From a virus, in the IMG/VR virus record IMGVR_UViG_3300043464_001457, positions 1 to 49,086 of that record: a stretch of DNA of 49,086 nucleotides, one strand, 5' to 3'. Positions 6,936-45,434 of the stretch are shown piece after piece. Under the pieces are notes generated by a model. It did not search any database. It was not told where the DNA came from and saw only the letters and a list, made by a program, of their open reading frames with translations. A program made the translations under genes and the position numbers. Numbering within the stretch: position 1 is the first letter of the stretch; each line of letters opens with the position of its first letter.

Positions 6936-7769
6936 TTAAGAGAAAATCTTTTCCTGTCGTCCGTCAACAGTTGAACGAACTGCAAAAAACTGATGGTACT
7001 TGTAAGTATGTACCAAATGGTCTTTCCAAGTCAACAATGCTCGGCCATTGTCGCCGTATGATGTGCCCCATGAATTGGGCATGTCAAAGGCAAAAGTATT
7101 TCCGAGCATGACAACATCGTCAACATTGACACTGTGGTTGCCGGGACCAGCCGAATAGTAGGCAACACCATCACCGTTGAGTTTCATGAAATTGTTTGTT
7201 GCATGAACAGCAACAACACACTCAAACTCAAGAGCAAGAGCAGTAGCCAATTCCAGCTCGGCGGTATTTGGGTCGTCACTGAAAGCGTACAACTCAAACC
7301 CGCGAAAGTCGGCCATTGCATCCTTGGCTTGCTGACTGACACGATTCCACAAGTAGGTTCCCATTGGTACTAACTCCTGCGGGGCACAACCAGTCTTCTC
7401 CAACGCTTTGAAACCATCGGAAAGAATTGAGCCTTGGTCACGACCGTCATTGATTTGAGCATAAACGGATTCACCGCTCAATTTGATGTGAGGCAGACCA
7501 CGACGAACGCGACCTTTCTCAATAGTCTGACTACATGCCCAACCATTGCAGGAACCAAGCCTGCCTTGATTCTTCCCGAAAATACTGAACGGGAAACGCT
7601 GCCGTGAACGAACACGGTCGGGACTGTTGACGATGCGGCTGATTTGTGGTGAGGTCATCACACCAACTGCATCAGCAAACAATGGAATCTCCATTGTCCG
7701 AGCTGGTGGAATGTCACCACCTGTACCGACTTCCTCACCGTTGGGAAGAATAAGAATTTCATTAGACAT
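6936..7769 (-). CDS. Papain-like (C1A) cysteine peptidase
   Basis: 277 residues. All catalytic features are present in order: oxyanion Gln68 and nucleophile Cys74 in KNQGRLGSCNGWA, catalytic His212 in GNHSVNV, and Asn232 in MPNSWGTSYGDNG. No signal peptide or transmembrane segment, and only a short N-terminal extension (about 55 residues), so no obvious long inhibitory propeptide. AGGTGAACC precedes the ATG. Papain-family enzymes are unusual in phages, where virion maturation or lysis is normally done by other families. It is flanked by two secreted proteins and a two-helix membrane protein, so a role in lysis or in degrading a protein cell wall/S-layer is my favoured inference. Confidence 0.9.
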   Translation of the reverse strand: MSNEILILPNGEEVGTGGDIPPARTMEIPLFADAVGVMTSPQISRIVNSPDRVRSRQRFPFSIFGKNQGRLGSCNGWACSQTIEKGRVRRGLPHIKLSGESVYAQINDGRDQGSILSDGFKALEKTGCAPQELVPMGTYLWNRVSQQAKDAMADFRGFELYAFSDDPNTAELELATALALEFECVVAVHATNNFMKLNGDGVAYYSAGPGNHSVNVDDVVMLGNTFAFDMPNSWGTSYGDNGRALLTWKDHLVHTYKYHQFFAVRSTVDGRQEKIFS

Positions 7770-19535: not shown

Positions 19536-20468
19536 CTAATCCTGTTCATTTCTTCCCATCAAAATTCGTTTGTAAGCATAAATCTGTTCGATGCTCAACT
19601 TGTAACCAAGCTCATCACCAACCATGTACGCGAAGGCATCAAAGTTTGGAGTCAGCAATGGCTTTTCGAAACGAGTTTTTATACCGGGGTAGCTGTCGTA
19701 GTCAGAATCCTTTTTGACAGTCGACAGGTGTGTCGCACAAGAATCATGCCACCTGTAGACGTACCCGTACTTATAGGCCCAGTAACCAGCTGCGGTTGCC
19801 ACTTCAGGTCGATACTTAGAAAGTTCACCAATTACTTTTTGGTCGTAAATGATTTCTTTTGTATCGGGGTAACCATGAATTTCTTCAAACATGTTGGTTG
19901 TCATGGCGACTGAACCATGAAACCTTCCTTCCGCATCCACCAATGTAACCTTGGGTTTGTTCTGTTCTTCTTCGTTGAAACAGTTCCATCCGTAGGTTGT
20001 CCAAACCTTGTTTGGTTTTGACCAACACAAATCACCGGCAAAGTTGTATTGCCGCTTCAGGTTGTAAACATGGTTCCGCAGGTAGTGCGGGAGATACAAG
20101 TCGTCATCATCCCAGATTGCAATTGCATCCCAGCGGAAGTTAATTCCATAGATGTCTGACAAATACATGTCAGGCAAATTATCAAGGTCGTAACCGTTGA
20201 CTGACTCAAGTCCTTGGGATTGAACATCATACCGATTCAGCATTGCCTTCATCATCACGTTGTATTTGTTGGACAACGAATTGACTCGGTTCCTTGTGCT
20301 GATGACGCTGTATTGGAGGTTCAAGTTGTGGAATGATTCCAAGTTTCCTTTGTCGTCAAACAGCAGCAAGTGCTTGTTGGGATACGACTGGGTGACAAAG
20401 CAGGCAAGACTGTTGCGGATAAGATGCAACGGTCTGCCATACGTTGGGCAGAGGCAAAGAATATTCAT
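19536..20468 (-). CDS. GT-A fold glycosyltransferase (family 2-like)
   Basis: 310 residues from ATG 20468 (26 bases after the upstream stop; a CCTGCGA leader motif is found twice just upstream). N terminus MNILCLCPTYGRPLHLIRNSL is the usual first strand of GT2 enzymes, and IWDDDDLYLPHYL holds the DxD that binds the metal and nucleotide sugar. RWHDSCATHLS near residue 255 is a likely acceptor-side motif. No membrane segment. With the second glycosyltransferase and the Ser/Thr-rich protein upstream it forms a candidate protein-glycosylation cassette. Donor and acceptor are not known. Confidence 0.8.
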   Translation of the reverse strand: MNILCLCPTYGRPLHLIRNSLACFVTQSYPNKHLLLFDDKGNLESFHNLNLQYSVISTRNRVNSLSNKYNVMMKAMLNRYDVQSQGLESVNGYDLDNLPDMYLSDIYGINFRWDAIAIWDDDDLYLPHYLRNHVYNLKRQYNFAGDLCWSKPNKVWTTYGWNCFNEEEQNKPKVTLVDAEGRFHGSVAMTTNMFEEIHGYPDTKEIIYDQKVIGELSKYRPEVATAAGYWAYKYGYVYRWHDSCATHLSTVKKDSDYDSYPGIKTRFEKPLLTPNFDAFAYMVGDELGYKLSIEQIYAYKRILMGRNEQD

Positions 20469-20493
20469 GGTTCGCTTCGCAGGTTTCGCAGGT

Positions 20494-22545
20494 TTAGGCA
20501 GACAGAGATTCGTTGCGGAGTCGTTCCGCTTCCAGCTGATGTTCTTCAGCCTTCTGAACTGCCAAGTCAAACAAGGAACCAAACATGTTTCGTGGGTCGA
20601 TGTCCTTGTAGATTCCGGTTAGCAAGGCTTTGTAACCAGCCTTGATGTAATCGGTCCACTTGTACTTTTCAGAGTTGGCTTCAATCTCAGCAAGGTAATA
20701 ATCTCTTTTTTCTCTACACTTGTCAATCCCGTCGAAGTCCATTTGTGAGGCTGTTTTACGGCAAGAGCAACCTTCACGCGGTTTGATTCCCAGTGATTCC
20801 ATGATTCTCATCAGCTCGAATCCCGGCTTTCCATCCTGCGGAGGCCAAGCCTTGATTTCCTCAGCTGGGTACATGGCTGGGTCACAGGTCAAGACAGTCA
20901 GACCGTACTGAGCTGGGGAAAAGCTGTACACCTTCCACTGCGGGTTCTCCTTGACGAATTCACGCAAGGCGTAGTTCAAGCCAAGTTTTCCGTCATCACC
21001 CAGTTCGCCGTTAATCATGGTGTCATGGATGACAATGAATTTACGAACCTTCGATGAGTGTTTCTTCAATTCCTCAGACAGCCGAGCATAGTTGGCTTCA
21101 GTGTCAAGGAACAACGCATCAGTCTCATCAATGTCAACCAACAGCGAATCAACGTTTCCGGTGTTGATGGTGAACGAAATGTGACCTTCCTCACCAGTGT
21201 CACGGACAACCGTGTTCTTGATGACTGTCATCATCGGGTCGGTACCTTCAGCGTTGTAACTGATGAGGTACTCAGGTCGACCAGCCAAGAAGTACAACGT
21301 GGATTCACGACGCTTGGTGAATTCAGTTACGTGACGACTGTTGTAAGCAACCACCTTCAATTGTTCCGAATGCTCATTCAAGTCACGCGGGATACGACGA
21401 ACCCATTGATAGAGTTCTTCAATTGAACAGTTGTTGATGTCTGGGAGCGGAGGCATGTTCGGGATGCGAACCTGCTGTTGCTCCTGCACTAGTTGACCAT
21501 GTGTGACAGCAAGCGGCTGAGAATAAATCGGCTTGAAGGCAACTGGGTCTTTAACCATTTCCAACCAGTCACCCATCGAGACTCGTCCATAACGAACGAA
21601 GTGTTCGTAGACTGGACGAATATCCAAACCCAGTTCATTGAAACCAATCAAGTAGTTCCGCAGCTTGTTGCGGGTATCCACGGTGTACTTGACTGCACGT
21701 GGGTCAGCGAACTGATGATTCCAACGCAGGAATGGTAAGCAATAGCTTGTTCGTCCAGCCTGACGATACTTTTCGTGGATGTAACCTTCTTCACCACCGA
21801 ACCCACGAAACTCGGGATTGAACCCAAGCCAAGATTCCCGACGACAGGCAAACAGACCCAGACCCATTGCCGGAATTTCAAATGGCAATTGGGCATCAGT
21901 GTCAGCTGCACGTGTGCAACCATTCTCAAGCAGAAACTTATCATGACCTGAGTAACTGGTTGTCTTGATTCCAATATCAATTGGATTCATCTCAGGAGAC
22001 AAATCACAATACAGAGTTCTATCTTGTGAATTGGAAACCACCGTGAACAACTCTCTTTGGGGAGAATACCATGCACATCCCCAACGACCCCACATTTCTG
22101 CTCCCCATTCCATGTTGAAATGAGTTTCATAACCAGTCAGGTGGTCGTAATGAATTGGTCCAGAATACAGATGGTCTGAATTGACATTGAAAATCAACCA
22201 GTCCACAAACTTCGGCAATGCTGTTGGGAAAAGGAGAATGTGTGAATCAATACACATTACCCATTCACCTTCAGCAACTTCGAACACCTTGTTGCGGCTT
22301 TGACTGGTGCCGAATTTTTCCTTCTCGATTGTGAAGTACCGGGTGCGGATTGAACCACCCCAGCTTTCAATCAGTTTCTTCGTGCGGTCACCGGCAACTG
22401 AATCTGGTTCAGCATCAATGACAACGATTTCAACTTCTTTCTGCAACCTGTTGGCAGCAATCTGAATCTTCAGATTCTGAACAGTGTTCCACAGATTTTC
22501 GAAGTCGTTAAGAACAGCCATCCCAATGGTAAGAATTGGTTTCAT
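20494..22545 (-). CDS. Multidomain glycosyltransferase with DSH motif, peptide O-glycosyltransferase-like
   Basis: 683 residues from ATG 22545 (GAGAG upstream). Residues 1-280 are a GT-A domain: LTIGMAVLNDF, then VMCIDSHILLF with Asp-Ser-His at 100-102 in place of the usual DxD, and FRGFGGEEGYIHEKYRQAG at about 247-264. The DxH metal motif and a downstream GGE motif are the signature of peptide O-GalNAc transferases (GT27) and Skp1-type GlcNAc transferases. Residues about 410-580 look like a CmcI/TylF-type methyltransferase or hydroxylase-like domain (DALFLDTEANY, IVIHDTMINGE). The C terminus has a small Cys module (GCSCRK...MDFDGIDKC). It lies next to the mucin-like gene. Confidence 0.75.
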   Translation of the reverse strand: MKPILTIGMAVLNDFENLWNTVQNLKIQIAANRLQKEVEIVVIDAEPDSVAGDRTKKLIESWGGSIRTRYFTIEKEKFGTSQSRNKVFEVAEGEWVMCIDSHILLFPTALPKFVDWLIFNVNSDHLYSGPIHYDHLTGYETHFNMEWGAEMWGRWGCAWYSPQRELFTVVSNSQDRTLYCDLSPEMNPIDIGIKTTSYSGHDKFLLENGCTRAADTDAQLPFEIPAMGLGLFACRRESWLGFNPEFRGFGGEEGYIHEKYRQAGRTSYCLPFLRWNHQFADPRAVKYTVDTRNKLRNYLIGFNELGLDIRPVYEHFVRYGRVSMGDWLEMVKDPVAFKPIYSQPLAVTHGQLVQEQQQVRIPNMPPLPDINNCSIEELYQWVRRIPRDLNEHSEQLKVVAYNSRHVTEFTKRRESTLYFLAGRPEYLISYNAEGTDPMMTVIKNTVVRDTGEEGHISFTINTGNVDSLLVDIDETDALFLDTEANYARLSEELKKHSSKVRKFIVIHDTMINGELGDDGKLGLNYALREFVKENPQWKVYSFSPAQYGLTVLTCDPAMYPAEEIKAWPPQDGKPGFELMRIMESLGIKPREGCSCRKTASQMDFDGIDKCREKRDYYLAEIEANSEKYKWTDYIKAGYKALLTGIYKDIDPRNMFGSLFDLAVQKAEEHQLEAERLRNESLSA

Positions 22546-22575
22546 GATTCTCTCGCAGGATTTGTGTAACAAAAA

Positions 22576-25221
22576 CTAAACAGGACCACCGCCTCCACCG
22601 CCAGAAGTTGTTGTGGTAGTGGTGGAAGTTGTTGTAGTCCACGGGTCAATACATGGTGTACTGGATGGGTCAGAGCAAGCGGTACCAACAATGTCAGTTG
22701 GACAATCGCATTGCAGCAAACCACCAGCAATACAGCTGTCAGAGCTGAAGACGTACACACCACCAATGCACAGGTAGTTGCAGCTTCCAGTGCATGGTAC
22801 CCAACAGGCAGCACAGTTCGTACCCGGTCCCTTCCAAGTACCACCGCATAACGTGCAGTCAGCTTGTGAGGTTACCGTACAGTTGTCAGCTGGGCAATTG
22901 CAACAGGCACCGAGCGGAGCAAGTGTTGTGGTTGTAGTTGTACTGGTCGTTGTGGTTGTGGAAGTGGTTGTGTTCTCAGAGCATCCAACTCGAATGGTTT
23001 CACCGGCAGTTGATGGTGAACGTCGGGGGACTGCACAGTCGCATGGGTAGTTGCACAGGTCAACCTTCTTTACGTTCCAAGTTGAACCTGTTGAAGATTC
23101 AAGAATACAGTACCTGTCACATGGGCCGGGAGTTGTAGTGGTTGTGCTGGTTGTGCGACAAACTTCCTGACAATCAACGTTGTCACAACTTCGTGGGTAA
23201 GCAGTTGGCTTTTTGCATTCGGTTGTAATCAACACACCGCAGTCATCGTCTGAACCACCAGACGGTGGGTTACAGCAGATACATTCGCAGGATGTGTAAT
23301 CAGCACAACCTTCGCAGTCACAGTTGCAGCAATCACTGCACCAAGACAACCAACGGAATTTCTGATTTACCGGGTCCCAAACCCACAGACATTTGCCACC
23401 ATCACCGGGAGGTTTTGGGTCTGGGTGATAAGTCAGTTTGCAATCTGTTTCGACAGTGGCACATTGATTGTCATTCGCATTTGTATCCGGTGCATCACAT
23501 GAACATTCAAAATAACCATTAGGCGTATCGTAGTCCAAACCTGCACAAGTATTTTCAGTGTTTACCCATTCAAACGTAAGACTGATGCAGTTGAAGCTAC
23601 TCCATCTTGGGGTAGAAACCCAAGTGCAACCATTCGCCGGGTTCTCACAGGCTAAAGTCGAAGTCGTGTTGCAGTTGCAGGTTGTGGTAGTCGTACTGCT
23701 GGTGCTGGTCCAGCTGCAACTATTCTGTTTGTTGCTTAGCTTTACGCAGTCAGTGTAAGTTGTTTCCCCAAGTGTTGTTCCAGCATAACTGGGGCATTCA
23801 CAAGTACATGGTTCAACAGTTGTTGAGCTGGTAGTGCTGGTTGTGGTTGTTGTGGTGGAAGTCCAAACAGCTGAACGACAAGCATTGAATTCAGAGTTGG
23901 TTGATGTGGAGGTAGTGCTGCTGGTTGTAGTGGTAGTGGTAGTGCTGGTGATTGCGGTACAGCTTCCAGTTTGCACCCAAACATCAGCACCTTCCCATTC
24001 GTTCAAGCAGGAACCGGAGCAATGACTAACCAAAATTGGTGTAGTCGTGGAAGTGGTGCTGGAAGTTGTGCTGGTGCTGGTGAAAGCGTTGTAGTACAGC
24101 AATGGCAGCTTGGGAACGATTGGAAACTTCCAATCACCCATGTCCACTGAACGGACCTTCGTCATCATCCCACGGTCACCGTGGTAGAACTGGATGCTGA
24201 CTGCACTCCCGCATGGTTTGAATTTGTGAATGCCGAAGTATTCAGCATCCAACAGTTCATGAGCGTTGTACGCTTTGTAGAACAAATAGCTCAGCTCACA
24301 GCTGAGAATTTCCAACTCTGCCTTGTAGGTGTAGGCACGTGAATGATTCGGGTCATAAATGTTGTAGACCGGAATGTGATGGTCAGTACCAGTGAAGTAA
24401 TCCGGTGAATCAGTTGGGTTTGTACAGACGAATGGTTCAAACCAAAAATCTGTATTGTTGTTCCACTTGCGGTACAGGTGTTTGAGTTCATACGGTCGTT
24501 CAGACTTGTCCAAGGTCAAGTCACGACGCTTCTCAATTGCCATGGTGTCAATGGCACCATCCAACGTCTGGTTATCAACCAAGTGATTCTTGACTGCCTG
24601 AATGCTGTACCCGTTGTATTCCTTGTAGACCTGATGACTGCACAGGTCCAAGATGTCATTCAGCTTGTTCCAATCATCTTCGTAAATGTCCATGTTGACA
24701 TCCCGAAGCAGAATGTCGGGGAAGTCAGCATTCGCTTTGGAAACTGCTGAGTAACTGGTTCTGATGTTGGTGTTGTCCCAGTAAACACCAATGCCTGCTT
24801 CCCATGTGTTGACCACACCAGTTGGTGGAGGCAATGCCTCATGCGGAGGGAATGGGTCTTTGCTCAGACGGGTCTTCATCTGAATTGCAATTGCCCGTGT
24901 ATCAACAATCTTTGCCAGAATCAAAGATTGGTCAGACAGCCGTGGATGATTGGCGAATGTGTCAGCAATCAACAGCCCATCAATCTGAACAGTCTCAACA
25001 CCATCAGTGATGGTTAAGACCAAATCTTCCTTATCGAGAAGGTCAGTGATGTCCTCTTTGACAAAGAGCAACCATCCATGACCGGGGTACCTGCCAGCTT
25101 TCAACTCGAAGCTGTTGGCTTTGATACCGAGAGCTGCCAGTGATTGAATCAGTTCAACGGTTGGATTGACGCAGAACTTCTCACCACCGGAATAAGCCAG
25201 CTTAACGTAGGCTGAAGGCAT
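22576..25221 (-). CDS. Mucin-like Ser/Thr-block and Cys-rich virion protein
   Basis: 881 residues. Residues 1-375 are an ordinary globular part (WEAGIGVYWDN, HVYKEYNG-like, FWFEPFV, GDWKFPIVPKLPLLYYNAF) that fits a tail/baseplate-attached domain. From about 380 to the end (22576-24090), seven blocks of nearly pure Thr/Ser (such as TSTTTTTTTTSSTTSTSTN) alternate with Cys-rich modules of 40-100 residues (CTCECPSYAG, CCNCDCEGCADYTSCECICC, GACCNCPADNCTV). The C terminus is a Gly-rich tail. No signal peptide. The alternation matches mucins in layout. It is the first gene behind a promoter/operator candidate, and two glycosyltransferase genes follow it. Likely an exposed fibre or adhesin that is O-glycosylated; inference. 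Confidence 0.75.
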   Translation of the reverse strand: MPSAYVKLAYSGGEKFCVNPTVELIQSLAALGIKANSFELKAGRYPGHGWLLFVKEDITDLLDKEDLVLTITDGVETVQIDGLLIADTFANHPRLSDQSLILAKIVDTRAIAIQMKTRLSKDPFPPHEALPPPTGVVNTWEAGIGVYWDNTNIRTSYSAVSKANADFPDILLRDVNMDIYEDDWNKLNDILDLCSHQVYKEYNGYSIQAVKNHLVDNQTLDGAIDTMAIEKRRDLTLDKSERPYELKHLYRKWNNNTDFWFEPFVCTNPTDSPDYFTGTDHHIPVYNIYDPNHSRAYTYKAELEILSCELSYLFYKAYNAHELLDAEYFGIHKFKPCGSAVSIQFYHGDRGMMTKVRSVDMGDWKFPIVPKLPLLYYNAFTSTSTTSSTTSTTTPILVSHCSGSCLNEWEGADVWVQTGSCTAITSTTTTTTTSSTTSTSTNSEFNACRSAVWTSTTTTTTSTTSSTTVEPCTCECPSYAGTTLGETTYTDCVKLSNKQNSCSWTSTSSTTTTTCNCNTTSTLACENPANGCTWVSTPRWSSFNCISLTFEWVNTENTCAGLDYDTPNGYFECSCDAPDTNANDNQCATVETDCKLTYHPDPKPPGDGGKCLWVWDPVNQKFRWLSWCSDCCNCDCEGCADYTSCECICCNPPSGGSDDDCGVLITTECKKPTAYPRSCDNVDCQEVCRTTSTTTTTPGPCDRYCILESSTGSTWNVKKVDLCNYPCDCAVPRRSPSTAGETIRVGCSENTTTSTTTTTSTTTTTTLAPLGACCNCPADNCTVTSQADCTLCGGTWKGPGTNCAACWVPCTGSCNYLCIGGVYVFSSDSCIAGGLLQCDCPTDIVGTACSDPSSTPCIDPWTTTTSTTTTTTSGGGGGGPV

Positions 25222-25725: not shown

Positions 25726-27030
25726 CTAACCGGCTATGGTGAACCGTTTCTTGTTCTTCCCGGTTTCCGTGACTTCATCCTCACCCTCAGACGAATCTTC
25801 ATCTTCGGGGGTGACTTCCTCGGAATCCGCCATTTCGTCACTGATGCCGGATGCCTTCATCGGGTTGTCTTCCTGACCCCCCACAGCTGGCTCAGCCGGG
25901 TTCTGAGCGTTGTCAGTCAGCAGCGGGTAGACTTCGACCTCAAACGTGTCGTAAGGCAGGTAGCCCATGTTGGCGTTGATTTGAACCAACGGACGAACAC
26001 ACTGTTCTACGAAGTCATGAACCAGCCATTGCAGTTCTTCTTGCAGGATGGAGTAGAAGGCAGTCTCGGGGACCGCACGACCGCTGGATGAACCAAAGCC
26101 TTCGTTGCCGGAAGACTCAATCACTTCATACGGGATACCCATGGCTTCAAGGATTTCGATACGGAGTGAGTTCCCGTAGTCGAACAAACCAGCCGGGATG
26201 GTGTTACCCTTAGCTGGTTCGTATTCCCATTTTCGATTGCCACGGGCATCTGTTTCACTGGGCAGTGCCATGACACCACCAGTGCGTTTCTTTTCAATGA
26301 TTTCCTGTGCGATGTTCTGATAAGCCTTGAGCTGACCGTTCGGGGTACGCACGAATCCTTGCGGGTGGTAAATCGTTCCACCTTCGAATGCGTTCTTGTA
26401 GAACCACAGTCGACGGATGTCACGGTAACCACCTTCCGACCAAACTTCATTCCACGGGACATGCACACCAATCAGACGGGAACGACCGTAGTATGGGTGG
26501 AACTGTCGCCAGTGAACATGGTGCAAAGCCTTCGGTCCACCTAAGTACACAGCCTTGCCAGCTTCCATGTTGACGGTCATGAACTTGTCAATCAGCAAGC
26601 CAGTGCGACAACCGTTCTTTGTCACGACGCGAACATTGACGGATTCGAAATCCTTGATTCCGTCATAAATGATTTGTCCAGTTTTCTCATCCTGCTTGTA
26701 CAGGATTTCTGAACCGCTGTAGCCCCATTCGATTGCCTTCAGAGTCTGAACGGCACCGTTAAGCCAGAACTTGCGAAGCTGCTGGTCAACAAACTCCTTG
26801 ACTTCGGGGGTGTCACAAAGGCATTCGAATTTGCCTTTAGTGAGCATTGGTCCTTTGATGAGCCACAGACCGAAGATGATACGGGGGTCCAACAACATTT
26901 CGTTGATGGTGAACATGGTGAATGGCGGACGCTGCCGCTGGTAACCACCATACCCCAAGAAGGTTGACGGAATGTATTCCTGAACCTGTGTTTTCAGCAG
27001 GTCATTAACGTTGACGTAAACTGTTTGCAT
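25726..27030 (-). CDS. Portal protein (DUF935/Mu gp29-like)
   Basis: 434 residues. Recognisable portal features: DPRIIFGLWLIKGPMLTKG (N-terminal region), LKAIEWGYSGSEILY (stem start), the conserved WRQFHPYYGRSRLIGVHVPWNEVW and RRLWFYKNAFEGG segment, LRIEILEAMGIPYEVIES and the late AFYSILQEELQWLVHDFVEQCVRPLV helix, as in DUF935/SPP1-like portals. The C-terminal about 40 residues are acidic (EVTPEDEDSSEGEDEVTE). Forms the dodecameric DNA gate of the head. Starts inside the end of the frameshift ORF (26-base overlap). Its position after the tail genes, about 17 kb from the terminase, is unusual. Confidence 0.85.
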   Translation of the reverse strand: MQTVYVNVNDLLKTQVQEYIPSTFLGYGGYQRQRPPFTMFTINEMLLDPRIIFGLWLIKGPMLTKGKFECLCDTPEVKEFVDQQLRKFWLNGAVQTLKAIEWGYSGSEILYKQDEKTGQIIYDGIKDFESVNVRVVTKNGCRTGLLIDKFMTVNMEAGKAVYLGGPKALHHVHWRQFHPYYGRSRLIGVHVPWNEVWSEGGYRDIRRLWFYKNAFEGGTIYHPQGFVRTPNGQLKAYQNIAQEIIEKKRTGGVMALPSETDARGNRKWEYEPAKGNTIPAGLFDYGNSLRIEILEAMGIPYEVIESSGNEGFGSSSGRAVPETAFYSILQEELQWLVHDFVEQCVRPLVQINANMGYLPYDTFEVEVYPLLTDNAQNPAEPAVGGQEDNPMKASGISDEMADSEEVTPEDEDSSEGEDEVTETGKNKKRFTIAG

Positions 27031-27289
27031 TTTTTACTGCCTGCTTTCTTTTCATCTGTTCCAATGCAAACTTCGCTGCAATCACATCGGCTTGGTATTC
27101 GTCGTCAGTTCGCATCAAAACCAAATGCCTGATTCGTTCCTCAGTCATTTCTGCGAAAGCTCTCCTTGCTCGGAGTTCTTCACAGCTTTCAATCTTTTCC
27201 TTTTCAGATTGAATGATGTACATACTGACCGGATTAAGGTACTTCTCTGGGATAGAGGAAGTACCGAAATCCGCAGCGAAATCAATCAA
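27005..27289 (-). CDS. Downstream half of a frameshift pair (no good start of its own)
   Basis: 94 residues if read from the TTG at 27289, but that codon is directly on the AAGGTGG sequence and there is no ATG until residue 23. In frame upstream it stays open to the A9 tract at 27299-27307 and is reached from the 27295-27591 gene by a -1 shift, giving a fusion of about 196 residues. Sequence: helical, acidic then basic (SEKEKIESCEELRARRAFAEM, YQADVIAAKFALEQMKRKQAVKN). By analogy to lambda G/GT this would be the T-like extension. Overlaps the portal start. A separate translation from TTG cannot be excluded. Confidence 0.65.
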   Translation of the reverse strand: MIDFAADFGTSSIPEKYLNPVSMYIIQSEKEKIESCEELRARRAFAEMTEERIRHLVLMRTDDEYQADVIAAKFALEQMKRKQAVKNANSLRQR

Positions 27290-27294
27290 CCACC

Positions 27295-27591
27295 TTAATT
27301 TTTTTTTACGTCGACAAACTGTGCCATGATGTAGGCAACCATCCGGTAGGCAGCGGATTCGCTGACCTTGACCCGGTAGTTCTCGTTCAGCTTACGAACA
27401 AAGTGCGGGACGTAATCATCCTGTTTTGCTTCGTACTGAGACAGCATCACCAAGCGGTGCAGTTTGCAAACGGTGTCTTCAATCGTGCCAACTTGCTTTC
27501 CTTCGTCGTCCCGAATGTTGAACTTGATGAGAACATCATCGTTCGACAAGTCGATTTCGTTGACGGAGGTTTCTTGCTTTTTCTTAGCCAT
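27295..27591 (-). CDS. Small tail-region protein ending in a slippery A-tract (tail assembly chaperone candidate)
   Basis: 98 residues, beginning MAKKKQETSVNEIDLSNDDV. Mixed strand/helix: LIKFNIRDDEGKQVGTIEDTVC, then helices SQYEAKQDDYVPHFVRKLNEN and ESAAYRMVAYIMAQFV. It ends GTA AAA AAA AAT TAA, so the last codons form an A_AAA_AAA heptamer one codon before the stop. Size (about 100 residues) and the -1 extension are typical of tail assembly chaperones gpG/gpGT. However, it lies after the tape measure gene, not before it, so the call is by analogy only. A CCTGCGA leader motif is nine bases upstream. Confidence 0.65.
   Translation of the reverse strand: MAKKKQETSVNEIDLSNDDVLIKFNIRDDEGKQVGTIEDTVCKLHRLVMLSQYEAKQDDYVPHFVRKLNENYRVKVSESAAYRMVAYIMAQFVDVKKN
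27299..27307 (-). other. A9 slippery tract, likely -1 programmed frameshift site
   Basis: Nine A on the minus strand, read in frame as GTA-AAA-AAA-AAT-TAA. A -1 slip on A_AAA_AAA moves the ribosome exactly into the 27005-27289 frame (AAA-TTA-AGG-TGG-TTG-ATT). The next stop in the zero frame is at 27297-27295. Confidence 0.65.
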
Positions 27592-27615: not shown

Positions 27616-29544
27616 TTAGTAATCGCTTGGCTTGCCCGAGGTTTCCTTGTCTTCTTCAATGTCACCTTCAGGCTTGCCGAGAATTGTATAGTTCTTTTGC
27701 CATGTTGTCAGGTAAATGGGGCAATTTCCATACTGACTAATCATGGATGATTTGACGAAATCATTTTTTGCCGGGTCGTTGTTGGGTGTGACTTCCTTAC
27801 CACCGACCTTGGTTATGACTGGTGGGTTGGTTGGGCCACCCATGCGGATTGCGTACCCACGCATAGTAACGCTGAAAGCATCACGCCCCATGTCTTGAAT
27901 GATGTAGTCTTCCTTCTTCTGACCGGAATCAAGTTTGGTTGAAATCTTGATTTTCCGTTCCTTGTTAACATCAGATTTTTCTTCCTCCCGAACAGTATCA
28001 GTGCGGTAGCGTTGCCACATTGATAAGTCAGTTGATGTATCAAATTGGAAGTTGTTCTGGAACTCAAGATAGGATGCTTGTTCCGGTGGACATTGGAAGT
28101 TGTACACCGATTGCAGGAACTCAGGTGAGAAACCACGGGATGAATACCCGCCTGATTTCATATCGTATGGTTGCATTCCCTCTGCACACCAAGCCAAGTT
28201 AATGGTGATGTCTTTGTGTTCAACGATTGGGAAGGCACCGTAGCTGTTTTGAACCAGACGAGCGGAGGCTGTCCATTCCTGCCAGCCTTGTTCATCGGCA
28301 ACATTTGAACCCAAGGCTGGTTTGAACATGCCGCTTTTCTGAAACAGCGTTAATGCATCAGTGGCAATGGTCCAGCTGACATCGTACTTGTACTCATGTG
28401 AGAACAAGGATTCTTCAAGGTTGATGGAGAGAATGAGAGGGACACGAATGATTCGGTCATTGCCATCAATCCTTAGTTCAGTGCCTTGTTCAATACGTTC
28501 ATTGATTAAACGAGTGAATGTAGCCCAAGCCCGAATTGCCGGTTCTTTGGGGAAAAGAACAATCCGTGCCGAGAAGTCGTTCTTCCACATGCGGAAGTTC
28601 TTTTGATACTTACCACCATTTAGTTCACTGCGAACACGATGGCGAACATCAATTTCCTTAACCCCCGGTGGGTATGGGTTTGGTGATTCAACTTCCTTCC
28701 ATGTGATGCTGTAGTCACAAGTCAGCAGGTCCGGTGAGAATTTGTAGTCTTGATTGGAAATGTGGTAGCCAGCGTAGGTCTGACCAAATCCTTGACCACG
28801 CCAATCAGTCAGCAGGTAGTCATAAATCAGCTGACGATACTTCTCTAACAGCTTTCCAGTTTTACTCTTGAAAAGTGGTGAGTTCTGTGCAGCGATTTCA
28901 ATCTGTCCTTCGCGGGTGACAGTGTGGTAGCCGGATGCGTTGATGTTGACTCGGGAGGATGACCAGAGTTCGACAAGGTATAAACCAGTGGATGGACTTT
29001 TTAAGGATGTACAAGCTGGTCTGCGGTGGATTTCAACCTTCCACACGACACGTGCGAGTTTGTTGTGGGCGATTGGTTCCCATGTAAGCACTTTCGGCAT
29101 CGGCCCGAACAAGACATCTCTTGTTTTTTCGTGCTTGTCCCCCGTTTCATTTTCTCTAGCGTAGTATGATTCATAAGAACCATACCCACGACCGTTGAAA
29201 AAGAAATCAAGTTGTGGAGTCATCAAGGTTGACTTGATTGCATCCAAAGTTTCGTCAGTGCTGTCAATGGAACAATAGATTGTTCCGTTTGCCATTCGGT
29301 CATTGAAATCTAATGTTTGATATGGAAATTCATCGGGACTATTGTATGAGTTCATTGTCGTGTCACGTGGACCAACAATGGCTTCAATGGTAAATGTTTG
29401 CTTCAGATATTTGATGCCGGTCTTGGCAGTGTTCATGACAGGAACAATCTCCACGCTGGTTTTAATCAGCTCGGAGAATTCATACCCACCGTACTTAACA
29501 CGGCTGTTTGCGTCTGCCGGGATAACGTAATGATTATCAGCCAT
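27616..29544 (-). CDS. Large tail-associated protein of unknown function
   Basis: 642 residues. Mostly beta-rich with aromatic residues: VKYGGYEFSELIKTSVEIVPV, TFTIEAIVGPRDTTM, GLYLVELWSSSRVNINASGYH, IIRVPLILSINLEESLFSHEYKYDVSWTIATDALTLFQKSGMFKP. No catalytic motif, no membrane segment. The start overlaps the end of the tape measure gene as TAATG. By position, after tape measure, it would be a distal tail, baseplate hub or tail-tip component. It ends in an acidic tail. I do not recognise the family. Confidence 0.65.
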   Translation of the reverse strand: MADNHYVIPADANSRVKYGGYEFSELIKTSVEIVPVMNTAKTGIKYLKQTFTIEAIVGPRDTTMNSYNSPDEFPYQTLDFNDRMANGTIYCSIDSTDETLDAIKSTLMTPQLDFFFNGRGYGSYESYYARENETGDKHEKTRDVLFGPMPKVLTWEPIAHNKLARVVWKVEIHRRPACTSLKSPSTGLYLVELWSSSRVNINASGYHTVTREGQIEIAAQNSPLFKSKTGKLLEKYRQLIYDYLLTDWRGQGFGQTYAGYHISNQDYKFSPDLLTCDYSITWKEVESPNPYPPGVKEIDVRHRVRSELNGGKYQKNFRMWKNDFSARIVLFPKEPAIRAWATFTRLINERIEQGTELRIDGNDRIIRVPLILSINLEESLFSHEYKYDVSWTIATDALTLFQKSGMFKPALGSNVADEQGWQEWTASARLVQNSYGAFPIVEHKDITINLAWCAEGMQPYDMKSGGYSSRGFSPEFLQSVYNFQCPPEQASYLEFQNNFQFDTSTDLSMWQRYRTDTVREEEKSDVNKERKIKISTKLDSGQKKEDYIIQDMGRDAFSVTMRGYAIRMGGPTNPPVITKVGGKEVTPNNDPAKNDFVKSSMISQYGNCPIYLTTWQKNYTILGKPEGDIEEDKETSGKPSDY

Positions 29545-31520
29545 TATGGAGTCACTCCAAATGCAAACTTGACGTTATGACCAGCGGCTGTTGCTGCCTG
29601 TGCATAGTTGGCAACTGAGCCGAGCATGAAGTTGGAGAGTTCAGCTGCCAAGTTGCTTTCATCAACTGCTTCATCTTGTTCAAGGATTTTGATGATGTCT
29701 TTTAATAGACTGAGTTCAAATGGTATGTATTCATCAATGAATTTGAGGAACATCTTCATGCCTTCTTTCATCAGGTCGAAGATGTATGTGACAACATCAA
29801 ACACACCTTTGAGGAGTGTGATGATTGGTTCAATGGTGAAGGAGGCAAGGAATTTGCTGATTACTGAAATGATGTCAATTCCGCTGGACAGCATTTCCAA
29901 GCCTGATGCAAATAGTGGAATGAATGGTTCAGTGAATGAATCCATGAATCCAGTTGTGGAAATTCCAAAGCTGGTGGAAGCATCGTTGTACTGGGCCATT
30001 TCATCGCCCATCTTCGCACCACGCTTCTGTTCAAATTCGAACATGCGAAGGTCTGATTCAACCATGGATTGCATCAGGTTGTTGCTCCAGACGGATAGCT
30101 GGTCAGCTGACTCCATCAATCGACGGGTCCACATTGCAGCTACGTTGGCTGAAATCAGGAAGCCTGCGGTTGCAGCTGCAAGCCCAGTAACGAATGTTGC
30201 GATACTTGCCGCTAAGCCGATTCCACCTGCCCCACCCGCACCACCAGCAGTTGTACCGCCAGTGATTAACCCACCACCACCGCCTCCTGCTCCACCAGCT
30301 CCACCGGCAATGAGTCCTCCACCACCGCCCCCGACAGTCCCGCCACCACCTGCCGGAATCAATCCCCCAGCACCACCTGCTCCACCACCCATACCCCCGA
30401 CACCGCCCGGAGGGGCTGGGAGTCGTGGTACTGCCAATGCTGTATTGTTTGCTGCTCCACCACCGGATGTTGCTCCACCGGAGTAAGTCAGGCGATAGTT
30501 TGCTTGCCCAATGGTTTGACCGCTGGCTGTCTGTAGCTCAGCAGCACTGGGGGCTGGTCGGGCAGCTGCTTGTTCGGGGGACCAATCACGGACCTTGGTT
30601 ACAACTTCGGGGGTCCAATTACTTCCACCCCCTCCACCACCACGCCCACCGCTGGTACCTCCGCTGAACATCTGAGAGAAGATGTCTTTTATTCTCCCAA
30701 AGAGCGGGAAAGCTGAAGCACTTCCTTCTCCACCACCAGCAATATCACCAAGCATTTGCTGACGGGAAAGGAAGCTGTTGGCATCTTGAGCCTTGTTCAA
30801 TAACCAGCTGGCACCGGGGATGTTGCCAGTCATCATCCGAGCGAAGCGGAATGTTCCACCAGCTTTGTTTTGTGCCTCTGCATAGCTGTCACGAATCTTT
30901 TGACGACGCAGAGATTCTTCAGCTTTTTTCTGTCGACGTTCTTCAGACCTTTCCAAATTGGTTTGTTGGGTCTGTTGCTTCTTCAGATTTTCTTCGTGCT
31001 TCTGCTGAGTACGTTGCTCAGTCTTTTGACTTTTCTCAGTCTGCTGACGGTGCTTATCCTGCTTTCGTGATTCATCAGCTTGTGACTTCTGACGGGATTG
31101 CTGTTCACGTTCACGATTTCTGCGTGAAGTTTCATCATCCTTTTGCTTTTGTCGTTCAGCTTTGGTTTGCCGGTCTTGGTCACGCTCATCTTCGCGTTTC
31201 TTCTGCCGGTCAAGAGTTCGTTGCTTCCGTAAGTTGGCATCAACTTCCTTCTGCATCTGAGATTGCAGACGGGCACGTTCACGCTCGTTCTTGATTTTTT
31301 CTCGTTCAACTTTCAGCTCGGCAGTTTGTTGAGCTGTCTTGAGGCGAATGTTCTTCGCTTCAAGGTCAACGTTCTGTTTTTGCTGAACGGCAGCTGCCTT
31401 GAGTTTACGAAGATGCTCGGCCATCTCCTTTTGACCAAGCCCAGCAAAATCCGCACCACCACCTGATGAAGATGATGATGCGGAGTTTGTAACAATGTCA
31501 ACTTCAAGTTTCTCTGCCAT
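29544..31520 (-). CDS. Tail tape measure protein
   Basis: 658 residues. Residues about 35-225 are a nearly unbroken coiled coil of Lys, Glu, Arg, Gln (RTLDRQKKREDERDQDRQ, REQQSRQKSQADESRKQDKH). A Gly/Ala/Pro-rich middle (about 290-430, with GGGGGG and AGGAGG runs) follows. A hydrophobic segment GIGLAASIATFVTGLAAATAGFLISANVAAMW is near 440-470, and further amphipathic/hydrophobic helices run to the C terminus (IEPIITLLKGVFDVVTYIF). The mix of coiled coil plus membrane-active segments is typical of tape measures, which set tail length and enter the host membrane. If about 0.15 nm per residue holds, the tail would be near 100 nm. Follows the tail tube gene by 11 bases; no strong binding site. 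Confidence 0.8.
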   Translation of the reverse strand: MAEKLEVDIVTNSASSSSSGGGADFAGLGQKEMAEHLRKLKAAAVQQKQNVDLEAKNIRLKTAQQTAELKVEREKIKNERERARLQSQMQKEVDANLRKQRTLDRQKKREDERDQDRQTKAERQKQKDDETSRRNREREQQSRQKSQADESRKQDKHRQQTEKSQKTEQRTQQKHEENLKKQQTQQTNLERSEERRQKKAEESLRRQKIRDSYAEAQNKAGGTFRFARMMTGNIPGASWLLNKAQDANSFLSRQQMLGDIAGGGEGSASAFPLFGRIKDIFSQMFSGGTSGGRGGGGGGSNWTPEVVTKVRDWSPEQAAARPAPSAAELQTASGQTIGQANYRLTYSGGATSGGGAANNTALAVPRLPAPPGGVGGMGGGAGGAGGLIPAGGGGTVGGGGGGLIAGGAGGAGGGGGGLITGGTTAGGAGGAGGIGLAASIATFVTGLAAATAGFLISANVAAMWTRRLMESADQLSVWSNNLMQSMVESDLRMFEFEQKRGAKMGDEMAQYNDASTSFGISTTGFMDSFTEPFIPLFASGLEMLSSGIDIISVISKFLASFTIEPIITLLKGVFDVVTYIFDLMKEGMKMFLKFIDEYIPFELSLLKDIIKILEQDEAVDESNLAAELSNFMLGSVANYAQAATAAGHNVKFAFGVTP

Positions 31521-31531
31521 TGAGAATCAAC

Positions 31532-32041
31532 TTAGGCTTGAGTGAAGTGGGTGTAAGCACCAGCGTTGTGATGCAGCAGTACCGAGAACTGAACTGGGAC
31601 AACACGTTGCCGGTTGTTCAAGTTGATTTTTGATGCTGAGTCTGGGGTCAGGATGCAGTATGGAAAGGTAGTTGCACTACCAAGTCCGACTGTCGTTGCA
31701 TCGGCAGTACCACCAGCACAGGCTGGGGTGAACACCATTGATTGAACAAAGGAGTTCTTGATTGCGGAGTAACCAATGCAACCATGTCGTCCGAAGGTGG
31801 CATGATACTGCCAGATTGCAGTGACCAAGGCAGTGGTCCATTCCTTGATGACTGCTTCGAGCGTGATGGTTACACCACGACCGATAATATCCAGCTCATG
31901 CTCTCCCCATTCATCAGCGGTAACGATGTCACCTTTGGAAGTGATGGTCATGGTCCAACCGTCTTCAGTGGCACCGAGAGCGGCACCCCCGTAAGTCACG
32001 TTGTAATGACCTGCAACAAGATTAGTAAGAACTTCAGCCAT
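31532..32041 (-). CDS. Probable major tail tube protein
   Basis: 169 residues, beginning MAEVLTNLVAGHYNVTYGGA. Typical tail tube opening: GHYNVTYGGAALGATEDGWTMTITSKGDIVTADEWGEHELDII, which matches 'NVxFGGxxLGxTxGGVxxxxxPE' of tail tube proteins. A central helix WTTALVTAIWQYHATFG and many small residues follow. It forms the hexameric inner tube of the tail. GGAG precedes the ATG and the gene directly precedes the tape measure gene, as expected. Confidence 0.75.
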   Translation of the reverse strand: MAEVLTNLVAGHYNVTYGGAALGATEDGWTMTITSKGDIVTADEWGEHELDIIGRGVTITLEAVIKEWTTALVTAIWQYHATFGRHGCIGYSAIKNSFVQSMVFTPACAGGTADATTVGLGSATTFPYCILTPDSASKINLNNRQRVVPVQFSVLLHHNAGAYTHFTQA

Positions 32042-39090: not shown

Positions 39091-40260
39091 TTAAGCTCCG
39101 ACGTATCCGTAGCCCACACAGGTTGGGACATACAGAACGGGGAGGTAGTTGTCGAGGAACTTCAGTTCGAAGCCCGGTGGGTCAATCACGCGGGTGGACC
39201 AAGTTGCAAAGCCTTGGGCTTCACGACCTGATGCCATGACGTTCTCGGCAATGACTTCGCTTCCATCAATCAGACCGAACCAGCTGTTGTCGACTTCCGG
39301 CAGGAAGATTGCGTAGTCGTCAGGAATCAGCTTTTCCATGTCTGATGTGCTGGTTCCGTCAGTGTCACCGTCCGCAGAGAGAACACCGTCGTACACATGG
39401 AAGGTGAACAACGGCAAGGCTCGGAACTTGACATCAAAGCCTGCGTCGGGGATGCCTTCAGCCGAACTCATTTGTCGGCTGGACAGCGATTCGAACACAG
39501 ACACCGACTGACCACCAAGTTCATGCAGAGCATCGTTGTTCTGAATGTTGGTGAAGGTCGTGCTGTTGACCCAGATGTGCCGCAGAGGACGACCGTGGAT
39601 ACGGCTGTAGCCTGCGTTAATCTTGTACAGCTGACCAACGATGTCAGCGGTTGGCAGAGTCCAGTCGGTCAAGATGTTGCTGCCGGTTCCCAGCTGCATA
39701 CGGGTCTTGTTGTCGGCTGGAATCTGGTAGTCAACCTTGATTTCGTCAGTTGCACCAGCGTTGTAGTTCTTCAGCTGGTAGTAATCACCATTGCGGTCCA
39801 TGTTGAAACCGCCACGGAGCAACCGGCTGAGCATCCATTCCCGTTGGTTACGGAACCGCTGGGTCATGAATTCAACTTGACGTTGGATGTACTGCTGACC
39901 ACGCAGGTCAAGAGTGCCAATCTGACCACCGAGAGGACGAGCCTTGTAGACTTCCTCATCGAGAATCAGGATGGATTCGTGTGACCGCATCAAAGCTGCC
40001 GACACGTGTCCGATTGCCTTCTTGCGAACGCGGATTGGACCAGCTTCGGGACTTCGTGCAGTGGCGAACTGACGAGTCTTGTCGAAGATGTCCCAGCCAG
40101 CTTCCCGACCCTTTACGGATTCGGTTGCTCGGCTGTTGTCACCTGACATGACATTGAACATCCGTTGAAACAACGACAACGGAGTTTGGATGCGATTGAC
40201 AATCCGGGTGATTACCGGACTCTGCATCATTTCAGAAAAAGTAATTGCTTGCGTACTCAC
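39091..40260 (-). CDS. Major capsid protein (lambda gpE-like)
   Basis: 389 residues. The sequence follows the lambda E family of HK97-fold capsid proteins: N arm PVITRIVNRIQTPLSLFQRMF, GREAGWDIFDKTRQFATARSPEAGP, HVSAALMRSHESILILDEEVYKARPLGG, GQQYIQRQVEFMTQRFRNQREWMLSRLLRGG (spine helix), P-domain ILTDWTLPTADIVGQL and the C-terminal IPDDYAIFLPEVDNSW...VIDPPGFELKFLDNYLPVLYVP. No proteolysis motif visible by eye. Gene order protease/scaffold, decoration, capsid is lambda-like. A strong terminator follows, typical of a high-level late gene. Confidence 0.9.
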   Translation of the reverse strand: MSTQAITFSEMMQSPVITRIVNRIQTPLSLFQRMFNVMSGDNSRATESVKGREAGWDIFDKTRQFATARSPEAGPIRVRKKAIGHVSAALMRSHESILILDEEVYKARPLGGQIGTLDLRGQQYIQRQVEFMTQRFRNQREWMLSRLLRGGFNMDRNGDYYQLKNYNAGATDEIKVDYQIPADNKTRMQLGTGSNILTDWTLPTADIVGQLYKINAGYSRIHGRPLRHIWVNSTTFTNIQNNDALHELGGQSVSVFESLSSRQMSSAEGIPDAGFDVKFRALPLFTFHVYDGVLSADGDTDGTSTSDMEKLIPDDYAIFLPEVDNSWFGLIDGSEVIAENVMASGREAQGFATWSTRVIDPPGFELKFLDNYLPVLYVPTCVGYGYVGA

Positions 40261-42542: not shown

Positions 42543-43820
42543 GTGGCAATCAACTACACTAATTTGTTCAATGATTTGAAGGAAGTGTATTCTGCTATCG
42601 AAGATGTTGATACGTTCTTTGCAGCAATGGTTGCTGAACGTGCTTCAATCATCTCACAACTCGAAGCAACTGGGGTGACCACACTCATCACTGATGTGAA
42701 TACAGCTTACGATAACATTGAAAGTTTATGCTCAGGCATCTACAGCAACCTGTCATCAATCGCATCAAAACGGTTACTTGACCGTGTGACAGTGCTGAAT
42801 GAACTCAATCAACCAGTCAACGCCAGTATGAGCGAGGTATTGACATATCTCCATAAGGACATGGTTGATAATTCACAAACAATCGACAAATCAACAGTCA
42901 GTGCGTCTGTAACTGATGTCGTAAAGACCAATGCCAACGCTGGTACTGTGGTCACCACGCTGAAGTTACCGGGTAATAAAACTCCCGGCGACCGAAAGAT
43001 TACCAATCGGTACACCTACAACAAGGACACTGAACTTCCCAATGCAGATACCTTGGCCTTGATTTGCACATCCGACTCTCAGCAGAGCGGGGCTGATGGG
43101 AATGCGACGTTCAGTGGGCGTGGTTTGAACTTCAAGGAAAGCCTGCACCCGTTGGCAATCAGCACTGGTAACTATGGGACGATGACACTTCGCCCAATCC
43201 AGTTCAACTCGTTGATTGACAACTTCTTCGAGGACTTCAGTGGGAATGTGCCGATTGGTTGGACTGCTTCCAATTCAGCCAACTATGCCAATGAGACTGT
43301 GGTGGTAACCCCAGCTTTCGGGACCAGCTCACTCAAGATTGTTGGTAACGGCACACTGACTTATGAACTGACTGATGATGTACAACCACGACAAGTTCTG
43401 TGTCTGTGCATTTATGCTCGAAAGGTGACTGGTGCAGCGGGAACTGTGACTGTTGTAGTCAACGTCAATGGTTCAGCAGCTGGGACCATTACCATCAATG
43501 CTGGCAATACGACTGACAGCGGGTGGACTCGTTTCACAACGACTGTGCCGATTGGGGCAGTACTGGGAACGGTGGAGCTGGTAGTGACATCAGCAACCAT
43601 CACTGGTGGATATTACCTTGATGGTGGTGCCTTGGCTGAGTATGCCTACTTCGGTGGCGTTGGTGTGGCACTGGTGCAAGGCACAGCCAATTTCATTGTT
43701 GATGATTTGATACACGTTGACATTACCAACAACGGAGCTGGAAAGCTGCAACGCATGTTCAACAAATGCTTTGGTACACAAATGCCAAGCAGTGGTACCC
43801 CAACCATTGCCGACCCTTAA
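42543..43820 (+). CDS. Inverted virion protein with carbohydrate-binding-type domain
   Basis: 425 residues from GTG 42543 (GGAG seven bases upstream). Residues 1-120 are helical (LKEVYSAIEDVDTFFAAMVAERASIISQLEATG). Residues about 125-230 have beta strands (KLPGNKTPGDRKITNRYTY). Residues about 233-390 form a jelly-roll-like CBM domain: FFEDFSGNVPIGWTASNSANYANETVVVTPAFGTSSLKIVGNGTLTYEL and ARKVTGAAGTVTVVVNVNGSAAGTITIN, with GWTRFTTTVPIG. No signal peptide. It is the only large plus-strand gene and divides protease/scaffold from terminase. Likely a surface or fibre component; GTG start and own promoter suggest separate control. Confidence 0.65.
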   Translation: MAINYTNLFNDLKEVYSAIEDVDTFFAAMVAERASIISQLEATGVTTLITDVNTAYDNIESLCSGIYSNLSSIASKRLLDRVTVLNELNQPVNASMSEVLTYLHKDMVDNSQTIDKSTVSASVTDVVKTNANAGTVVTTLKLPGNKTPGDRKITNRYTYNKDTELPNADTLALICTSDSQQSGADGNATFSGRGLNFKESLHPLAISTGNYGTMTLRPIQFNSLIDNFFEDFSGNVPIGWTASNSANYANETVVVTPAFGTSSLKIVGNGTLTYELTDDVQPRQVLCLCIYARKVTGAAGTVTVVVNVNGSAAGTITINAGNTTDSGWTRFTTTVPIGAVLGTVELVVTSATITGGYYLDGGALAEYAYFGGVGVALVQGTANFIVDDLIHVDITNNGAGKLQRMFNKCFGTQMPSSGTPTIADP

Positions 43821-43847: not shown

Positions 43848-45434
43848 TCAAGAACGCAGAAAGTTATCTACGGGGATTGGTTGCCCAATCACAACTGGGA
43901 CCTCCCCGTAGGGACTTTCAACAATCTCGTAGTATTCTTCAATCCCCTTCGTTGCATTCTCCCATTTGACATAATTTGCTGCCAACGACAGCGTATCAAC
44001 AATGTCATCGGTTTCTGTCGGGTGACCTTGCCAGCTGAACACTTCGTCATCGTGTTCCTTCATCCAAGCGGCATACATTGGGTACCAGATTCTACCCGCC
44101 TTCATTTGAATGACTGCGGTGGTTGAATTGACAACCTTGTCAACTTCCTTGTGAACTCCTTCCACCACCAGACCCAATCGGGTTGCATACTGCACCACGC
44201 CTTTGCCAATACCGTTTTGTTCCACGATTACCTTGGCAGGTTTCCACTGGTGGTAGCGTTCCAGCATGATGTCTACGACTTCGGGGATTTCTTCCCGAAA
44301 GCGAACCATGTCCAACCACAGCAGGTTGTAGCATTTGGTCAGACAGAACGTACTGATTACCGTCCATGAACGTTCATTGTTCGGGAACAGGTCAGTATCA
44401 CCGGGTCCTTCGGAAGCACTGGCTGCAACGTCCATCGTCTGAAAGACTTCAATGATGTCAGTGCGTTGGTCCAAGATTCGTCCACTGAAATTCGGACCTA
44501 AGTAAATGTGGGCACCAGCCTGTGAGTAGTACCGCTGCCAGAGTCGTTTGAAGCGAGCATTGGGAATGAACCCCCAGTCACCAAACTTCAAACGAGCCTT
44601 ATGTTCTTCAGACAGTTCATCAAGAGACTTGTCGTATTCCTTCTGGTCAAGAAACGGGTTATCAATCGCAAAGCTGGGGATGAACAACCGTTCTTTGTGT
44701 TTGCCTGTCCACCTGACATGAACGTTCTTTTTCTTTGCTTCTTCATGCGTCATGTCCGGTTCAATCTTGAACCGTTCCTGCACCCACTTATGACCAATGC
44801 CACCGGGGTTGGCAGTACACCGCATCCTCAATGGCACCATTGCCTGTCTGCGGCATTCATCACATTCCTTATCAAACTCATCCTTGTGCTTTCGACAACG
44901 GCACTTACGCAGACGAGAAAACAAGTACGTGTAATCGTTTTCACTGTGTTGGGTGACTTCATCAAAGCCAACCATCTGAAGTTCGATACCTTGGTACCGG
45001 GTGTAGGCATTTGATTCACCAATGTACCCGAAGGCGATGCTGGCATCCTGTAGACGATTTCCCAGCTTGTCAAAGCATTTGAACCGGAAGGTGTGGGTTT
45101 CAGCCCGGTAGGTGACTTCTTTATCAGCTAGGTACGGCTGCATCCATTTCGTCATACGGTCCAGCAACGCTTCACTCTGCTTGAGGTCAGTCAGCGTTTT
45201 CCGTAAGAGCAAGGCAGCGTAGCCGGGAACATCCACGTACTGAAGTGCTGCCATCAGCAAAGCATCGGATTTACCACCACCAGCTGCACCACCGAACAGC
45301 ACTTCACGATTGGGGGCAATTAAAAAAGCCAACTGTTTTGCAGTTGGCGTGTGCGGGATGAATCGAGTCATTCTCGGCTTGAGGAGGCCGGAAATGTTCT
45401 TGATTGCATTCAAATCCAAGTTATTTAGGTTCAT
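43848..45434 (-). CDS. terL: Terminase large subunit
   Basis: 528 residues. Walker A GGAAGGGKS (48-56), Walker B QMVGFDE (153-159) with catalytic Glu159, and the later MRCTANPGG coupling motif (about 201-209). The nuclease half has TMDVAAS (first Asp), IVEQNGIGKG and a final DIVDTLSLAANY with acidic residues of the RNase H-like fold. Between Walker B and motif III sits a Cys/His insertion (Cys178, Cys180, His183, Cys191, Cys194: genomic 44853-44903) that looks like a zinc site. No strong binding site; ATG overlaps the previous stop as ATGA, so it is translationally coupled. Packages DNA into the head. Confidence 0.95.
   Translation of the reverse strand: MNLNNLDLNAIKNISGLLKPRMTRFIPHTPTAKQLAFLIAPNREVLFGGAAGGGKSDALLMAALQYVDVPGYAALLLRKTLTDLKQSEALLDRMTKWMQPYLADKEVTYRAETHTFRFKCFDKLGNRLQDASIAFGYIGESNAYTRYQGIELQMVGFDEVTQHSENDYTYLFSRLRKCRCRKHKDEFDKECDECRRQAMVPLRMRCTANPGGIGHKWVQERFKIEPDMTHEEAKKKNVHVRWTGKHKERLFIPSFAIDNPFLDQKEYDKSLDELSEEHKARLKFGDWGFIPNARFKRLWQRYYSQAGAHIYLGPNFSGRILDQRTDIIEVFQTMDVAASASEGPGDTDLFPNNERSWTVISTFCLTKCYNLLWLDMVRFREEIPEVVDIMLERYHQWKPAKVIVEQNGIGKGVVQYATRLGLVVEGVHKEVDKVVNSTTAVIQMKAGRIWYPMYAAWMKEHDDEVFSWQGHPTETDDIVDTLSLAANYVKWENATKGIEEYYEIVESPYGEVPVVIGQPIPVDNFLRS

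Follow-up and report, generated by a model that had tools for sequence, protein, structure and literature searches.

A putative tail assembly chaperone gene, probably decoded by -1 frameshifting, upstream of a Mu-type phage portal

How are two short open reading frames (ORFs) expressed when the first ends in a run of adenines and the second, lacking a good start of its own, follows in another frame, and what might their product do? The question arises from positions 1 to 49,086 of the IMG/VR virus record IMGVR_UViG_3300043464_001457, a stretch of 49,086 nucleotides called the window here, in which the structural genes are all on the minus strand. A preliminary description, made from the DNA letters, had proposed that a -1 frameshift on an A9 tract fuses the two ORFs, as in the lambda gpG and gpGT tail chaperones. 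On the best reading of the present analysis, the locus would belong to a hitherto undescribed family of tail assembly chaperones of the G/GT type, encoded directly before the portal gene and two genes past the tape measure gene. The whole account, in which a -1 frameshift gives the short and long forms of such a chaperone, is given a probability of about 0.72. The elements of the locus are as follows.

27295-27591, minus strand: frame-0 ORF with an ATG start, encoding the N domain of 98 amino acids, the product of normal termination
27301-27307, minus strand: slippery heptamer A_AAA_AAA in frame 0, within the A9 run at 27299-27307
27005-27301, minus strand: -1 extension of 98 codons encoding the C domain, which would be made only within a fusion of about 195 amino acids
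27207-27291, minus strand: predicted stimulatory RNA structure of 85 nucleotides, separated from the heptamer by a 9-nucleotide spacer

The frame-0 ORF ends, as first described, with GTA AAA AAA AAT TAA, the stop codon occupying 27295-27297 on the minus strand, and the downstream ORF does lie in exactly the -1 frame and is open through the A-tract. After the heptamer the -1 reading continues AAA TTA AGG TGG TTG ATT GAT and runs for 98 codons to a stop ending at 27005, overlapping the start of the portal gene. The heptamer itself is canonical, and its phase is that required for tandem -1 slippage. Passage from the N into the C domain across the shift would generate the junction peptide VDVKKKLRWLIDF. 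Across the 48 annotated genes of the window (14,147 codons) there are only 24 in-frame heptamers of the form XXXYYYZ, and since this junction is the sole one among them to combine a nearby stop with an open -1 frame of at least 50 codons, the arrangement is more than chance.

Relatives were reached from the window terminase, through the diverged records that it retrieved and the portals in those records, to portal alignments. Five of the diverged records carry a homologous portal, all with the same arrangement upstream of it, and the heptamer is A_AAA_AAA in four of these and G_GGA_AAC in the fifth. The portal alignments then added 54 viral loci and later nine more. Once near-identical copies had been removed and contigs ending before the gene excluded (L118, L125, L126, L148 and L149), the set comprised 41 distinct loci, including the window, that encode an N-domain homologue. 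As the loci were gathered by way of the portal, the adjacency of the frameshift gene to the portal is partly built into the set. Searches with the frameshift region itself found no close relatives, scans for exact peptides of the window's portal and fusion gave no matches, and among cultured phages the fusion and portal retrieved nothing beyond a weak match to the portal of Bacillus phage Eoghan, which lies in the ordinary place behind the terminase.

In 37 of the 41 loci the two ORFs are exactly in -1 register, with an in-frame XXXYYYZ heptamer at the junction; these are all the loci in which the two domains are not fused in frame, so that the frame relation is conserved throughout. The heptamers are A_AAA_AAN (32 loci), G_GGA_AAC (2), A_AAT_TTT (1), G_GGT_TTT (1) and T_TTT_TTC (1); these five types exchange across loci while the register remains constant, although the portals of some relatives are only 25-30% identical to that of the window. 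In the unfused loci the N part spans 80-118 codons, whilst the length of the -1 part is 80-101 codons. Interruption of the A-tract in relatives had been named beforehand as a result that would speak against frameshifting; where the tract is absent, another canonical heptamer is found in the same phase, or else an in-frame fusion. The same comparison bears on transcriptional slippage, in which RNA polymerase would add an A within the A9 run to give an mRNA with both ORFs in one frame. An A9 run, which is long enough for such slippage, occurs in the window and in 24 other distinct loci, but the register is the same where the runs are too short (GGGAAAC, AAATTTT, GGGTTTT, TTTTTTC and A6), and the heptamers are in the phase required for tandem tRNA slippage. 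Polymerase slippage is thus a very unlikely explanation of the family, whilst at A9 it might contribute alongside ribosomal slippage.

In the four remaining loci both domains are encoded by one uninterrupted ORF, with neither a slippery site nor an A-tract:

L131, 3393-3896: continuous fused ORF
L132, 3357-3845: continuous fused ORF
L124, 3391-3885: continuous fused ORF
L137, 3393-3896: continuous fused ORF

These loci form one clade (support 100/98) among the frameshift loci, and the tree requires a single change. It is likely that the frameshift was lost in this clade, on a tree whose root is a midpoint only. Homopolymers are error-prone, and continuous ORFs in four relatives could suggest that the true run in the window is A10 and the gene a single ORF, broken by a fault of assembly or sequencing. 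This is barely credible, as the same relation recurs in 37 distinct loci from many metagenomes, several of them without homopolymers, and the continuous genes belong to one separate clade that has no A-tract. For the family, sequencing error was rejected on the strength of that 37-locus register.

Substitution patterns in the relatives indicate that the -1 frame is evolving as protein under purifying selection. For the -1 part read in the -1 frame, the pair L108/L109 has a synonymous rate (dS) of 0.35 and a non-synonymous rate (dN) of 0.021, L110/L111 has dS 1.84 and dN 0.094, L133/L135 has dS 0.65 and dN 0.07, and L095/L096 has dS 0.88 and dN 0.09. When the same DNA is read in frame 0, dN is about equal to or greater than dS, and only in the -1 frame is it well below. 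An alternative is that the downstream ORF is a separate gene, started at the TTG at 27287-27289 or by coupling to the upstream stop, which is only a few bases away. This TTG, the sole candidate near the beginning of the -1 ORF in the window, is preceded by AAGGTGG, but the Shine-Dalgarno-like sequence abuts it with no spacer, in line with the original remark that the ORF has no good start. A proper start in relatives was likewise to have counted against frameshifting, and in none of the 37 unfused loci does the -1 ORF possess a Shine-Dalgarno-led start, defined as a start codon with a match of at least five bases; in many loci there is no start codon whatever within the first 25 codons past the shift. 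As one clade, moreover, encodes both halves as one protein, an independent downstream gene is highly improbable.

Programmed -1 ribosomal frameshifting at A_AAA_AAA is consequently regarded as very probable, its backing being close to the most that a comparison of sequences can give. Most ribosomes would terminate at the TAA at 27295-27297 to release the 98-amino-acid N-domain protein, whilst a minority would slip back by one base on the heptamer, aided by the RNA structure 9 nucleotides downstream, and produce the N and C fusion of about 195 amino acids that ends at the portal start. The predicted structure has a folding energy of -32.9 kcal/mol and a z-score of -4.27, with none of 200 shuffled sequences equally stable. 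Strong folding of this region is also predicted in the nearest relatives (z -3.0 in L154, -3.3 in L095 and -2.7 in L096), but the base pairs cannot be aligned one to one. An upstream Shine-Dalgarno stimulator of the dnaX kind, sought across the loci, is not a consistent feature of the family. The frame relation, the heptamers, the purifying selection, the lack of another start, the single fused clade and the predicted RNA structure are all given by the sequences, and from them we infer that slippage takes place, at what rate, and that the product acts as a chaperone.

What the product might do has to be judged from its surroundings and its domains. The structural genes run along the minus strand in the order terminase, protease/scaffold-like, capsid E-like, neck genes, tube, tape measure-like, 642-amino-acid protein, 98-amino-acid ORF, -1 ORF and portal, the main landmarks being:

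43848-45434, minus strand: terminase
39091-40260, minus strand: capsid E-like protein
31532-32041, minus strand: probable tail tube protein (weak PHROG match, phrog_2175, E 5e-5)
29544-31520, minus strand: tape measure-like protein of 658 amino acids, assigned by position and make-up
27616-29544, minus strand: tail-region protein of 642 amino acids, directly upstream of the 98-amino-acid ORF
25726-27030, minus strand: Mu-type portal (Portal_Mu, E 6.6e-4, below the curated cut-off; phrog_113), its start codon lying inside the end of the -1 ORF

The tape measure identity is taken from the syntenic genes of L092 and L094, which match tape measure PHROGs (phrog_167, E 3.7e-7) where the window protein does not. 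Several relatives have very short tape measure-like proteins, of about 300-400 amino acids. A homologue of the 642-amino-acid protein (550-850 amino acids) occupies the same place in 39 of the 41 loci. The placement of the pair after the tape measure and before the portal, noted from the outset as unusual, was borne out, with the tape measure-like gene two genes upstream and the Mu-type portal directly downstream. The usual place of a tail chaperone gene is between the tube and tape measure genes (PMC12846349). No gene is found between them here, the gap being 11 nucleotides in the window and 1 and 23 nucleotides in two relatives (L093 and L094).

In alignments the N and C domains were treated separately, because joint alignment of the two halves with the fused proteins misaligned them. 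AlphaFold models the N domain as a beta hairpin with three helices (pLDDT 88.5) and the C domain as all helical (pLDDT 94.7), and from the confident model of the latter its sequence appears to behave like a genuine domain. A recurrent sub-threshold match was found between PF06528 (Phage_P2_GpE) and residues 4-25 of four C domains (E 0.0015-0.043); the motif concerned, MADVAVIFHWPPSEL in P2, is located in E', the -1 extension of gpE+E'. When a profile built from eleven E' sequences is aligned with that of the C domain, the two match immediately past the shift with a score of 20.7 (P 0.0004), compared with 9.8 for the N domain, 11.8 for the portal and at most 12.5 for 100 column-shuffled C profiles. 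The resemblance of the C domain to E' is thus suggestive, being position-specific but weak.

Assignment as a tail assembly chaperone is considered probable, the mechanism, the sizes and the resemblance of the C domain being in agreement with it, as is the absence of a gene at the canonical place. By analogy with lambda gpG/gpGT or P2 gpE/gpE+E', the most likely mode of action is that the abundant short form would bind the tape measure protein and the long form, which would be rare, would use its C domain to recruit tube subunits; both would be absent from the virion. Several observations weigh against the account as a whole. The gene is found beside the portal, two genes past the tape measure-like gene, instead of in the tube-tape measure interval. 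Searches of Pfam, PHROGs, PDB sequences and BFVD gave no significant match for either domain, and Foldseek searches with the models (PDB folds for the N domain only, BFVD for both) returned no fold neighbours. The E' resemblance is itself sub-threshold, with an hhalign probability of 35%. A stimulatory structure, for which a search had been recommended, is strong in the window and in its closest relatives but clear in only about one third of loci (z < -1.5; 30 loci folded). Finally, the fused clade is counted as a sign that phages of this clade can do without a separate short form. The original comparison with gpG/gpGT is therefore supported only in part: the mechanism fits, as do the sizes, the operon context and a weak likeness of the C domain to P2 E', but the comparison does not extend to membership of a known family above threshold or to the canonical position.

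The position prompts a different view of the product, namely that the frameshift is real but that it makes a portal-specific assembly factor or a head-tail joining protein needed in two forms. In every locus the portal follows the gene directly, in 22 of the 37 unfused loci the -1 stop overlaps the start of the portal gene or is at most 2 nucleotides away (the frame-0 stop being 109-373 nucleotides from the portal start), and no chaperone family is matched above threshold. Yet the adjacency partly reflects the portal-based collection of loci, the tail-region protein is equally constant on the other side of the gene, and the C domain leans towards P2 E'. Distantly related Mu-like portals in other genomes lack the frameshift gene, and portal-like matches in other planctomycete genomes have none upstream, with a terminase-like sequence before the portal where this is readable. 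A portal-specific factor is accordingly rather unlikely. It is unlikely, too, that the frameshift also sets portal expression, with termination and reinitiation tying portal synthesis to the rare long chaperone form; the closeness of the -1 stop to the portal start allows translational coupling but does not demonstrate it. Such coupling, if true, would link portal rings to tail assembly factors.

Other features of these genomes were recorded alongside. The Mu-like portal follows the tail genes, not the terminase, in the window (25726-27030) and in L092, L093 and L094. A related portal on a contig of a Pirellulaceae (planctomycete) metagenome-assembled genome is one hint to the host, and any portal match occurs in only 5 of 392 genomes of the planctomycete phylum. 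A terminase protein 100% identical to that of the window is encoded at 1664-3247 of L002, from another metagenome, and this phage or a near twin is therefore present in a second sample, as judged from the terminase and not from the frameshift region. Elsewhere in the window are found:

42543-43820, plus strand: ORF of 425 amino acids between the terminase and protease genes, opposite in strand to all structural genes; beta-rich, virion-like composition, no Pfam match
22576-25221, minus strand: protein of 881 amino acids after the portal, in which long Thr/Ser runs (TTSTTTSTTT) alternate with cysteine-rich stretches; no family match
20494-22572 and 19536-20582, minus strand: two glycosyltransferase-like genes, the first matching Glycos_transf_2 (E 1e-10)
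6936-7769, minus strand: papain-like cysteine protease (Peptidase_C1, just above the cut-off)

As a mechanism, -1 frameshifting is well known. In the literature searched, which omits most subscription journals, this family, its place in the genome and its fused clade appear to be undescribed. The putative chaperones would form a widespread family of frameshift-decoded phage proteins, in a lineage for which no cultured member is recognised. Their gene occupies a site that searches for tail chaperones would pass over, and conventional annotation would yield two unrelated hypothetical ORFs. Within the family the slippery heptamer takes several forms, which replace one another while the frame relation stays fixed, and one clade dispenses with the frameshift. 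Comparison of that clade with the frameshift loci would allow the need for a fixed short-to-long ratio in tail assembly to be tested.

Three known systems offer a comparison. Frameshift sites of the dnaX type combine an A_AAA_AAN heptamer with a downstream structure, of which the window has the first and is predicted to have the second; in contrast to such sites, the family shows no consistent upstream Shine-Dalgarno-like stimulator, and the shift in the window lengthens the product instead of shortening it. For tail assembly chaperones of the lambda gpG/gpGT type, the frameshift mechanism of which has been described (PMC5009743), the likeness lies in a -1 shift close to the end of the short ORF, in sizes of a similar order and in slippery sites of the G_GGA_AAN kind, which occur in L098 and L099, whereas no sequence family is shared. 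With P2 gpE/gpE+E' the family has in common a short protein accompanied by a long fusion made by a -1 shift, and the -1 domain aligns at its beginning with E', at the same place past the shift. The E/E' gene, unlike that of the window, lies between the tube and tape measure genes, the E' motif covers about 40 amino acids against about 85-100 for the C domain, and the N domain is not recognisably related.
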